A DNA stretch of 40,431 bases from Oceanospirillum beijerinckii DSM 7166 (GTDB lineage Bacteria > Pseudomonadota > Gammaproteobacteria > Pseudomonadales > Halomonadaceae), in assembly GCF_000422425.1 (NCBI RefSeq), contig NZ_AULT01000054.1:1-40431 (forward strand). Reading direction: 5' to 3'. A program made the position numbers and the translations under genes. The notes under the pieces are model-generated. The model was given only the letters and a program-made list of their open reading frames with translations. It did not search any database and was not told the DNA's origin. Position 1 is the first letter of the stretch; each line of letters begins with the position of its first letter. This document shows positions 2,206 through 6,492 of the stretch, in pieces.

Positions 2206-4053
2206 TTACTCCTCGCCCAGGAAACCGCCGGTTTGATGGTCCCAGAGTTGTGAGTAGATTCCTCCCTGCTGGATCAGCTCACTGTGTTTACCCTGTTCGG
2301 AGATTTCACCCTTATCCAGCACCACTAAACGATCCAGTGCGGCAATGGTGGATAAACGGTGGGCGATAGCAATCACCGTTTTGCCTTCCATCAGCTTGTA
2401 TAAACTGGCCTGAATCGCCGCTTCTACCTCTGAATCCAATGCGGAGGTCGCTTCGTCCAGAATCAGAATGGGGGCATCTTTTAGCAGGACGCGGGCAATA
2501 GCGATACGCTGGCGCTGACCGCCGGACAGCTTAACGCCCCGTTCACCCACATGAGCATCATAACCACTACGACCCTGAAGATCGGTCAGGCCAAGAATAA
2601 AGTCATGGGCTTCCGCTTGCTTTGCGGCTTCTATCATCTCTTCTTCGGTCGCATCCGGGCGACCATAAAGAATATTGTCCCGTACCGAGCGGTGAAGCAG
2701 GGAGGTATCCTGAGTCACCATACCGATCTGGGCACGCAGAGAATCCTGTTGAACCTGTTGGATATTCTGACCATCGACCTTAATGGCACCGGTCTCGACA
2801 TCAAAGAAACGCATCAGTAGATTCACTACTGTGGATTTACCCGCACCTGAACGCCCCACCAAGCCGACCTTTTCGCCGGGTTTGATTTTCAGATCCAGGC
2901 AATCGATGATTTTTTTATTTTCACCGTGCTTTTCATTCTCACTATAATGGAAACCTACCTTATCAAAGTGAATTTCGCCGTGATCCACCCGAATCGGTTT
3001 GGCATTGCTCTGATCCTGAATCTGTAGGGGCTCAGACAGGGTGTTCATACCGTCTGCTACGGTGCCAATATTTTCAAACAGGGCGCTGACCTCCCACATA
3101 ATCCAGTGAGCCATACCGTTCAAACGCAGAGCCAGTGAAACCGCAATAGCGATAGAGCCCACAGATACTGCGTCCTCGGTCCATAACCAGATCGACAGCG
3201 CTGCGACACTAAAGGAAAGTAGGTGATTAATGCTCTGTACGCTTAGGTTTAACTGGGTCACCAAGCGCATCTGCTTATGTACTGTATCCATAAAAGCATC
3301 CATACCTTCTTTGGCGTACTCCGCTTCACGATCGGCATGAGAGAACAACTTTACGGTGACGATATTGGAATAAGAGTCGACAATACGGCCGCTCATAATG
3401 GAGCGGGCATCGGCTTGTTTTGACGAAATATCCTTCAGCTTAGGTACAAAGTAATACTGAATGCCTACATAACAGATCAGCCAGATTACCATCGGCATCA
3501 CTAGCAGATAATCTGCCTGAGCTACCAGCACCAGCATAGAAATAAAGTAGACAGAAATAAATACCAGCACATCCAACAGCTTCATCACGGTTTCACGCAC
3601 CGACAATGCGGTCTGCATCACCTTGGTAGAGATACGCCCGGCAAAATCGTTGGCATAAAAAGATACGCTCTGCTTAAGCAGATAGCGGTGTGCCAACCAG
3701 CGAATGGACATGGGGTAGTTGCCTAACAGCGTCTGGTGTGTCAGCAAAGAATGCAGAAAACCTGCTGCCGGTAACGCGACTAAAGGAACCATAGCCATCC
3801 AAAACAGCGTGCTGGATTCTTCTGCCAGGAAGGTCGCTGGGTCTTTACTGGACAGCCAATCCACCAGTTGCCCCATAAAACTGAATAGTGTCACTTCTAA
3901 AACAGCGACGATAGCCGTCAATAACGACATCAAAAGCAGTGGTTTTTCCATGCCCTTGGAGTAGTGACGACAGAACTGATAAATCCCTTTAGGTGGCTGA
4001 GTCGGTTCAGCCGGAGGAAAGGCAGGAATTAACCTTTCAAAAAAAGCAAACAT
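2206..4053 (-). CDS. ABC exporter half-transporter (fused membrane and ATPase domains)
   Basis: This 615-residue protein has the layout of a type IV (MsbA-like) half-exporter that works as a homodimer or heterodimer in the inner membrane. Residues about 35-330 form the membrane domain with six helices. The nucleotide-binding domain follows: Walker A GRSGAGKS at 400-407, the Q-loop near VTQDT (446-450), the ABC signature LSGGQ at 509-513, Walker B LILDE ending at E534, and the switch histidine in AIAHR. All catalytic residues are present, so it should hydrolyse ATP. The substrate cannot be read from sequence; relatives are called multidrug or lipid exporters. The ATG at 4053 is preceded by only a weak purine stretch. 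It stands alone, with a terminator at 2122-2178, and is divergent from yhhQ across 382 bases. Confidence 0.9.
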   Translation of the reverse strand: MFAFFERLIPAFPPAEPTQPPKGIYQFCRHYSKGMEKPLLLMSLLTAIVAVLEVTLFSFMGQLVDWLSSKDPATFLAEESSTLFWMAMVPLVALPAAGFLHSLLTHQTLLGNYPMSIRWLAHRYLLKQSVSFYANDFAGRISTKVMQTALSVRETVMKLLDVLVFISVYFISMLVLVAQADYLLVMPMVIWLICYVGIQYYFVPKLKDISSKQADARSIMSGRIVDSYSNIVTVKLFSHADREAEYAKEGMDAFMDTVHKQMRLVTQLNLSVQSINHLLSFSVAALSIWLWTEDAVSVGSIAIAVSLALRLNGMAHWIMWEVSALFENIGTVADGMNTLSEPLQIQDQSNAKPIRVDHGEIHFDKVGFHYSENEKHGENKKIIDCLDLKIKPGEKVGLVGRSGAGKSTVVNLLMRFFDVETGAIKVDGQNIQQVQQDSLRAQIGMVTQDTSLLHRSVRDNILYGRPDATEEEMIEAAKQAEAHDFILGLTDLQGRSGYDAHVGERGVKLSGGQRQRIAIARVLLKDAPILILDEATSALDSEVEAAIQASLYKLMEGKTVIAIAHRLSTIAALDRLVVLDKGEISEQGKHSELIQQGGIYSQLWDHQTGGFLGEE

Positions 4054-4345
4054 GAGGCGGTCCTATTGGATCTGACATCATTGGAAATGTGCAGCAGCAG
4101 AGTGGTTAAAACACAACTTTCCCTACAGCGCTATTGGCATTATGGAAAATATTGTGCAGAACCTCTGTGTCAGTGGAAAGGCGTTATAATAGTGGAAAAG
4201 TTAACCCGATAGCAGGCCTTTCAGGGTAAATTACTATCAACTTTTAGGAATAAGCAATTAAACCAGTGCGATGAAATAATTCATTCCGATGTTTGCTCAT
4301 GCCTTTAAGCCACCACTTTTGTCTAGGCATATCCGAAGCTTTCTG

Positions 4346-4351
4346 TATAAT
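4346..4351 (+). promoter_or_regulatory. Likely -10 box of the yhhQ promoter
   Basis: A perfect TATAAT lies 90 bases before the yhhQ start, which would start a transcript at about 4358 carrying the riboswitch at 4399-4429. No convincing -35 box is seen at 17 bases. Just downstream TGTCGA (4365-4370) and TCGACA (4380-4385) form a small hairpin. The rest of the 4054-4435 gap holds no gene I can support; another TATAAT is at 4185-4190. Confidence 0.45.
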
Positions 4352-4398
4352 CTGCCGCCGGTTATGTCGATGTATAGCGTCGACAGATAAATTTTAAC

Positions 4399-4429
4399 TT
4401 GGGTTCCCTCACCCCAATATACAAAAAGG
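4399..4429 (+). promoter_or_regulatory. preQ1 class I riboswitch (translational) before yhhQ
   Basis: TTGGG (4399-4403) pairs with CCCAA (4413-4417) as stem P1. The loop TTCCCTCAC ends with C4412, which matches the cytosine that pairs with preQ1 (C15 of the Thermoanaerobacter tengcongensis aptamer). After P1 comes an A-rich strand (TATACAAAAA) and then GG at 4428-4429. These GG bases are the core of the ribosome binding site, 6 bases before the ATG, and can pair with the CC at 4411-4413 to form the P2 pseudoknot. From memory the T. tengcongensis aptamer has the same order: CTGGG, 10-base loop, CCCAG, A-rich strand, AAGG. The gene behind it imports queuosine precursors, the expected target. 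Ligand binding should block translation. Confidence 0.85.
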
Positions 4430-4435
4430 TGCAAT

Positions 4436-5107
4436 ATGACTGCGTTTTCTTCTGTGCAACAGCGCAAGGCTTTGTCTTTTCTGGTTCTTTTTCACCTGTT
4501 GGTGATTAGCTCAAGCAACTATCTGGTACAGCTACCGTTTACCCTGTTTGGTTTTCATACGACTTGGGGTGCGTTTACCTTTCCTTTTATTTTTTTGGCC
4601 ACAGACCTGACGGTACGGATTTATGGTGCGGAACTGGCCCGTAAGATTATCTTCCGTGTGATGCTGCCGGCGCTACTGGTCTCTTATGGCCTATCGGTAC
4701 TCTTCTTTGAAGGTCAGTTCCAGGGTTTGGGTCAGCTAAGCGAGTTTAATCTGTTTGTCGCCCGTATCGCCATTGCCAGCTTTATGGCTTACCTGTTGGG
4801 GCAGATTTTGGATGTGCATGTGTTTAACAAGCTACGTCAGACTAAACAATGGTGGGTGGCTCCAAGCTTGTCGACGTTGTTAGGTAATGCACTGGATACC
4901 TTGGCATTTTTTGCGATTGCCTTTTATCAAAGTTCAGACCCGTTTATGGCGGAGCACTGGACTGAAATTGCTCTGGTGGATTACGGCTTCAAACTCCTGA
5001 TCAGCCTGGGGCTGTTTGTGCCTATGTATGGCGTGCTACTCAATACACTGGCAAGCCGTATTACTCAAGTTAATAATAACGTTGAGACACAACAGGCAAG
5101 CGTTTAA
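4436..5107 (+). CDS. yhhQ: Queuosine-precursor (preQ0/preQ1) transporter YhhQ
   Basis: The 223-residue product is a hydrophobic integral membrane protein of the YhhQ (VUT family) type with about six helices. Recognisable parts are the early SSSNYLVQLPFTLFG segment, TWGAFTFPFIFLATDLTVRIYG (conserved family block with acidic and arginine residues in a membrane setting), and SLSTLLGNALDTLAFFAIAF near the C terminus. Family members in Escherichia coli import the 7-deazaguanine precursors preQ0 and preQ1, which feed queuosine modification of tRNA wobble bases. The preQ1 riboswitch overlapping its ribosome binding site supports the same role here independently. The start at 4436 is set by AAAAAGG six bases upstream. 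No other queuosine genes are in the window, so whether the cell salvages or also makes the precursor is unknown. Confidence 0.92.
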   Translation: MTAFSSVQQRKALSFLVLFHLLVISSSNYLVQLPFTLFGFHTTWGAFTFPFIFLATDLTVRIYGAELARKIIFRVMLPALLVSYGLSVLFFEGQFQGLGQLSEFNLFVARIAIASFMAYLLGQILDVHVFNKLRQTKQWWVAPSLSTLLGNALDTLAFFAIAFYQSSDPFMAEHWTEIALVDYGFKLLISLGLFVPMYGVLLNTLASRITQVNNNVETQQASV

Positions 5108-5355: not shown

Positions 5356-6492
5356 ATGACTGAATCAACCCGGGATCATAATGTTACAGCCCTTTATACA
5401 GAAGATCAGGCTCAGGTATTACAGGAACTGTCTGAGCAGTTGGGTGAGAGCGGTTCTGCAGTCTTGTATCTTGCTGCACAGATGGCAGCAGCTCCATTGC
5501 AGGAACAGTTAGTCAGCTGGGTTTTTGAACAGAGTGGGCAAGATATTGCCGCTGAGGAAGGGTTCGCTGTTTGTGCAAAGCTACATCTTGCTGAAGAGAT
5601 AGAGCCAGGCATCTGGTCTATCGATTGTGAGGTGGCTTCACATCTGACTTCAAGCCTTACGGAAACCGCGCAAGAAAAAGCCTTGAAGCTTAGACAGATA
5701 GCAGTGCAGTTTTTTAACCTGTCAGTTGACGGGCATATTCAAGCCCCTCTTATTGCCTCTGATCTGGAACATATACGCTTTTTAACTTCACAAGTGACTA
5801 GCGAGGTGGAATGTGATCTTTTGATCTGGCTGGCGGATTTTGCCTATAAAAACAATGATACTGCGACTTCTGCGCAAAGCTGGCAAACTATCTATCAGTA
5901 CCTGAGTGAAACATTTGGTGAAGAGCATGAAAATACTCTTATTGCCATGAATAACCTGGCCGAAAACTTGCGCGCGTTAGGACATTATGATGAGGCATTG
6001 GCACTTTATAAGGATCAGTTAGATATTTGTAACCGAGTATTTGGTGAAGATAATGTATCCACGTTGACCTCTGTGCAGAATTTAGCCTCTGTGCTGCGCG
6101 AATCCGGAGACCTTTTAGCAGCCCGGGATTTTGAACTCAGGGTTCTTGAGCAACGCAAGGTGAGTTTAGGTGAGGATCACCCTGATACTTTAGTATCGAT
6201 GAATAACTATGCTTCAACGCTAAAAGGCTTAGGTGATCTGGATCAAGCGAGGGCAATACAACAGAAGGTTTTGATTAAGCAGAAAGCTTATCACCGTATT
6301 GAAGATCCTGAAGTTACAGAAGCGGCATGGAACTTGATACAGACATTCCTACTGCAAGATGATTATGATGCAACACAAGATGTCTTGTTCGATGATTTAT
6401 TTTGGTTGATGGATGATAACGCTGTTCTTCAAAGCCATAGCCAAGCAAAAATTAAAGACATGTTGATGGAACTATTGAACCAGAAAGCCTAA
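5356..6492 (+). CDS. Tetratricopeptide-repeat protein, kinesin-light-chain type repeats
   Basis: The 378-residue protein has no signal peptide or membrane span. Residues about 180-320 contain at least three 42-residue repeats of the kinesin-light-chain TPR type, each with the pattern F-G-E-D/E-H then TL-MNNLA...L...G...A; examples are FGEEHENTLIAMNNLAENL and LGEDHPDTLVSMNNYASTL. The first 130 residues contain a leucine-rich helical region and a segment (VCAKLHLAEEIEPGIWSID) that reads like the winged-helix linker found between the NTPase and TPRs of STAND proteins, but no P-loop is present. TPRs bind other proteins; the partner is unknown. It stands alone, with 248 bases before it and no clear terminator after it. 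A role in signalling or scaffold assembly is inference only. Confidence 0.75.
   Translation: MTESTRDHNVTALYTEDQAQVLQELSEQLGESGSAVLYLAAQMAAAPLQEQLVSWVFEQSGQDIAAEEGFAVCAKLHLAEEIEPGIWSIDCEVASHLTSSLTETAQEKALKLRQIAVQFFNLSVDGHIQAPLIASDLEHIRFLTSQVTSEVECDLLIWLADFAYKNNDTATSAQSWQTIYQYLSETFGEEHENTLIAMNNLAENLRALGHYDEALALYKDQLDICNRVFGEDNVSTLTSVQNLASVLRESGDLLAARDFELRVLEQRKVSLGEDHPDTLVSMNNYASTLKGLGDLDQARAIQQKVLIKQKAYHRIEDPEVTEAAWNLIQTFLLQDDYDATQDVLFDDLFWLMDDNAVLQSHSQAKIKDMLMELLNQKA

Follow-up and report, generated by a model that had tools for sequence, protein, structure and literature searches.

A 31-base element in the leader of yhhQ in Oceanospirillum beijerinckii DSM 7166 is almost certainly a type III class-I preQ1 riboswitch, through which preQ1 would repress translation. 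The element lies at positions 4399–4429 of the window (the whole stretch of DNA analysed, 40,431 nt), six bases 5′ of the yhhQ ATG, and is an ordinary member of an already known riboswitch type, one solved in E. coli. The observations behind this assignment are the sequence, its conservation before yhhQ, covariation in helix P1, and the tgt, queF and queC genes of the same genome. A literature search found no paper joining a preQ1 riboswitch and Oceanospirillum; the assignment places an expected regulator of queuosine-precursor uptake in this genus. The element reads TTGGG TTCCCTCAC CCCAA TATAC AAAAAGG, its first 19 bases (P1 and loop) forming the hairpin TTGGGTTCCCTCACCCCAA. The parts of the leader and the gene behind it are as follows.

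4324–4351, plus strand: promoter-like site TAGGCA-16-TATAAT (consensus scan, 10/12); weak evidence for a promoter, the region holding 3 such sites versus 2.1 in shuffles
4365–4385, plus strand: hairpin upstream of the aptamer, 9 pairs with a loop of 3 (z −1.5); a candidate part of the riboswitch by position only
4399–4403, plus strand: P1 5′ strand UUGGG, from the sequence and from covariation among relatives
4404–4412, plus strand: loop UUCCCUCAC (DNA letters TTCCCTCAC), the same as in E. coli K-12
4404 and 4412, plus strand: U4404, equivalent to U7 of the E. coli (Eco) RNA, and C4412, equivalent to Eco C15, the specificity base (roles as given in PMC10622847)
4407–4409, plus strand: putative anti-Shine–Dalgarno CCU, the P2 5′ strand, complementary to A4427, G4428 and G4429; pairing predicted from Eco
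4413–4417, plus strand: P1 3′ strand CCCAA, from the sequence
4418–4422, plus strand: linker UAUAC (TATAC), from the sequence; varies among relatives
4423–4429, plus strand: A-rich strand and Shine–Dalgarno sequence AAAAAGG (AAAAA 4423–4427, GG 4428–4429), from the sequence
4436–5107, plus strand: yhhQ, queuosine precursor transporter, 223 codons with start ATG at 4436 (NF008406, 375.3 bits against a cut-off of 252; TIGR00697, 200.4 against 50.95; PF02592, 126.4 against 27.2)

Type III preQ1-I riboswitches are reported in PMC10622847 and PMC11625349 almost only from (gamma)proteobacteria and before yhhQ. The marks published there concern the loop, rich in pyrimidines with UU following P1 and AC preceding the P1 3′ strand, and the tail, an A-rich AAGG; PMC10622847 adds three G–C pairs where P1 adjoins the loop and four to five conserved adenines, followed by a Shine–Dalgarno GG that can pair with the loop. 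The window element has five P1 pairs (TTGGG 4399–4403 with CCCAA 4413–4417), the three at the loop end being G–C (GGG 4401–4403 with CCC 4413–4415). Its loop is short (9 bases) and pyrimidine-rich, with UU after P1 and AC before the P1 3′ strand, C4412 lying directly 5′ of that strand. The tail carries the AAAAAGG, its AGG complementary to the CCU of the loop. The placement before yhhQ in a gammaproteobacterium is a further type III feature found here (NF008406, TIGR00697), and 4436–5107 matches the NCBIfam equivalog for the preQ0/preQ1 transporter.

According to the original prediction, the ribosome-binding site of yhhQ is occupied by a class-I preQ1 riboswitch. The type III marks, together with the conservation and the model match described below, bear this out, and the predicted coordinates, 9-base loop, 31-base total, P1 strands TTGGG and CCCAA, C4412, A-rich strand and GG all agree with the sequence. 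The prediction had also called the switch very compact, with loop and third strand shorter than the reference, but both are of normal type III size. Of 65 distinct elements, 34 have a 9-base loop and 31 a 10-base loop, and five to nine A precede the GG.

The E. coli yhhQ riboswitch of type III stands before the same gene, with the same 19-base hairpin TTGGGTTCCCTCACCCCAA, the same AAAAAGG tail and the same six bases between GG and ATG. The leader of strain K-12 reads ATTGGGTTCCCTCACCCCAAT GGTTAATC AAAAAGG. It differs from the window element in having six P1 pairs rather than five and a linker of 8 nt (GGUUAAUC; DNA GGTTAATC) rather than 5 nt, and its linker GGTTAATC is the one printed in PMC10622847 for the Eco RNA that was crystallised and tested. 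The review PMC11625349 gives the structure of that RNA as PDB 8FZA. As reported in PMC10622847, Eco RNA binds preQ1 at 58 nM, prefers preQ1 over preQ0 133-fold and, in E. coli, gives 6.1-fold repression of a reporter; when U7, C15 and A33 are each changed, only 1.0- to 1.3-fold repression is left. On the Eco 36-mer, these three positions correspond to U4404, C4412 and A4426 of the window. In the same paper, cutting the linker to 5–6 nt gave higher affinity. The 5-base linker of the window element resembles these shortened variants, and by this analogy the window RNA may bind preQ1 more tightly.

Helix P1 is supported by comparison among relatives. In the 65 distinct elements (61, plus four more from a loose-pattern genome scan), with pairs numbered from the loop outwards, standard pairing is seen in 65, 65, 65, 62 and 61 elements for pairs 1 to 5, and in 33 for pair 6. 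Pairs 2, 4 and 5 covary: pair 2 is AT instead of GC in 4 elements, and pairs 4 and 5 each occur as five standard types (pair 4, TA 33 and AT 24; pair 5, TA 33, GC 15 and CG 8), the window having TA at both. The register of these elements was set by the core, with the loop length picked for most pairs, and the core letters GTTCCCT were required, so the invariance of the loop and first pair is partly by construction. With the P1 3′ strand slid one base in either direction as a control, standard pairs were left in 3 or 39 of the 65 at pair 4, and in 49 or 37 at pair 5. A second, model-fitted alignment (A2) gave a covariation score of 0.297 versus 0.160 in shuffles, a value reached by 0 of 500 and exceeding all six slid registers. 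The −1 slide came second, at 0.216, with 77.3% of cells paired versus 81.6% in the true register. A2 showed no excess of pair changes on both sides (3 versus 3.0 in shuffles) or of further pair types (14 versus 12.2, reached by 84 of 500); it contains one chance match (L072 at 2696–2720, 15.1 bits) and some incomplete rows. For P2, pairing is possible in these elements, but the bases are invariant and the core letters were required in the search, so covariation gives P2 no support. The nested fold of the window element has no stability beyond that of shuffles (z +0.82); single-sequence folding was set aside as a test, being uninformative for a pseudoknot.

Covariance models give two different pictures. 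The Rfam model RF00522 (PreQ1) has no match in the window at its gathering level, a cut-off of 39 bits, and none at that level in the loci of 12 relatives. In a permissive search, the alignment of the window element spans the full model but scores 12.6 bits (E 2.5), far below the cut-off, and in a genome scan at E up to 10, in which 150 of 796 candidates were scored, the element is absent from the 4 matches, the best of which reaches 18.5 bits. The E. coli K-12 leader is likewise unmatched at E up to 10. RF00522 is thus blind to the type III subtype, and its miss at the window is uninformative because the E. coli type III element is missed too. The original prediction had named a lack of covariance-model hits in this or related yhhQ leaders as grounds for rejection. 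Such hits are indeed lacking with RF00522, but the test is without power given the result on the K-12 element. A model built from outside the genus did match. This model, R1, was made from 48 elements, none of them from the genus and with seven distinct elements longer than 42 bases also left out. It finds the window element at 32.4 bits (E 2.8e-6; next 9.6 bits) in the window and at 32.4 bits (E 3.6e-4; next 16.8) in the 5.3 Mb genome, where 150 of 856 first-look candidates were scored. R1 rests on an unmodified MAFFT alignment (A1), with P1 drawn for a 10-base loop; A1 places no gap between 9- and 10-base loops or in the linker, which leaves the tails out of register. Annotation that relies on RF00522 will overlook type III elements, the E. 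coli one included.

Could the hairpin simply have arisen by chance beside a Shine–Dalgarno sequence? Its geometry is common enough to allow this. A loose preQ1-I descriptor matches 4 times on the two strands of the window (the element and 3 sites on the minus strand) and on average 0.63 times in 60 dinucleotide shuffles, with a maximum of 4; the descriptor is unspecific and geometry alone is weak evidence for the element. That RF00522 does not call the element points the same way. However, a chance origin is refuted by conservation and its probability is practically nil. In 115 of the 123 yhhQ-homologue loci, the gene is preceded by the core, namely in all 80 kept from a wider set, 34 of the 42 relatives' matches, and K-12. 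These 123 loci comprise 42 protein matches among 58 relatives (own genome included), 80 loci kept from at least 575 confirmed in a genome contig collection, and K-12; they are partly non-independent, L041 and L112 carrying element sequences already counted in L006 and L009. The counts require the letters GTTCCCT and AAAGG, and more diverged elements are missed by them. The core is absent before the gene in 8 of the 123, L034 and L119–L121 (53–63% identity) and the remote L124–L127 (27–33%). It is present in all six genomes of the genus, whose leaders have a mean pairwise identity of 95% in the 19-base hairpin (lowest 84%) versus 30% in the 40 upstream bases (ungapped). Thus, the element is real, beyond chance geometry.

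The remaining alternatives accept a conserved element and differ on what it is. The original prediction had likened it to the T. tengcongensis (Tte) aptamer, which PMC11625349 assigns to type II, and an element of that type would share much with the one described here: the layout of an H-type pseudoknot, an AC just 5′ of the second P1 strand, an A-rich strand and a Shine–Dalgarno GG in P2. This class-I layout holds, but the subtype does not. According to PMC10622847, Tte has purines in the loop and differs in its P2 and pocket ceiling, the type II P2 using loop purine contacts, whereas 4404–4410 of the window is free of purines. Furthermore, the UU that follows P1 and the AAGG tail point to type III, and the hairpin is identical to that of the type III Eco element, making type II extremely unlikely. 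The conserved hairpin could also work without a metabolite, for example by setting basal translation as the target of a protein or small RNA, since conservation and P1 covariation alone are no proof of ligand binding. This is very improbable, although slightly less so than type II, given that the same E. coli hairpin with its Shine–Dalgarno sequence binds preQ1 and represses expression at the values cited above from PMC10622847. The type III preQ1-I riboswitch is therefore the preferred reading.

How would such a riboswitch act on yhhQ? The ligand, the pseudoknot and the direction of control described for the window RNA are carried over from its E. coli homologue, and the Eco mechanism is very likely shared because the hairpin, the Shine–Dalgarno sequence and the gene are the same. 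When preQ1 is plentiful, it would bind between P1 (4399–4403 with 4413–4417) and the pseudoknot helix P2, in which C4407, C4408 and U4409 would pair with G4429, G4428 and A4427. The Shine–Dalgarno sequence would then be buried, and less YhhQ transporter would be made. When preQ1 is absent, AAGG would be free and YhhQ would be made. In a profile search, tgt, queF and queC score above their cut-offs in the same genome, which therefore appears able to make and use preQ1.

Several features vary among the relatives. The loop of Vibrionaceae elements (L035–L114) tends to be 10 bases long, against 9 in E. coli and Oceanospirillum (L005–L010, L115). Among the 31 distinct elements with a 10-base loop, 25 carry CC in place of AC just 5′ of the second P1 strand. 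In L017, L018 and L021, the linker between P1 and the A-rich strand is ~24–44 bases versus 5 in the window, leaving room for an extra stem. L034, L119, L120 and L121 are within-family homologues that lack the core before the gene. A loose pattern for elements away from yhhQ matched 85 of 293 genomes, many of these by chance, as a backward control also matches often; 5 of the 30 loci examined for the gene behind precede yhhQ. One candidate, L156, looked partly formed but has no long frame behind it and was rejected as a chance match.

The sequence upstream of the element also tends to fold. In 105 leaders, which are related and hence non-independent, the 45 bases before the element have a mean fold z of −1.57 (38 under −2), whereas three windows farther upstream give −0.26, −0.04 and −0.31. 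Stem sequences vary between leaders, L014, L015, L020, L025, L116 and L117 having stems of 10–12 pairs, and the hairpin is missing in some leaders (z 0 or above in L006, L061 and L097). Some yhhQ leaders from two other families of the same order (f2 and f8)—L012 (the same place as L135), L136, L153 and L155—have a P1 of only 3–4 pairs (GAG/CUC) and elements of 26–27 bases, those of L136 and L155 having 26. A speculative and rather doubtful idea is that the yhhQ leader combines two parts: an upstream hairpin that changes quickly and sets message stability or folding so that a tiny switch works, and a fixed type III aptamer whose P1 is worn to 3 pairs in some relatives, giving natural aptamers of ~26 bases, below the smallest reported. 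The natural 5-base linker and the relatives with a 3-pair P1 are test cases for the minimum size of a preQ1 aptamer.

In a tree of 33 proteins, the yhhQ products of the genus form two groups beside or among those of Vibrionaceae, apart from the rest of their own family, with E. coli YhhQ at an open fork next to them. This placement suggests a transfer of yhhQ, the key forks having supports of only 80–85. As for the neighbourhood, the TPR-repeat protein downstream of yhhQ (5356–6492) is matched in none of the other loci, for which the flanks span only 0.5–2 kb, and of the five other genomes of the genus, three (L006, L008 and L009) have a match to the divergent upstream ABC transporter (2206–4053) beside yhhQ.
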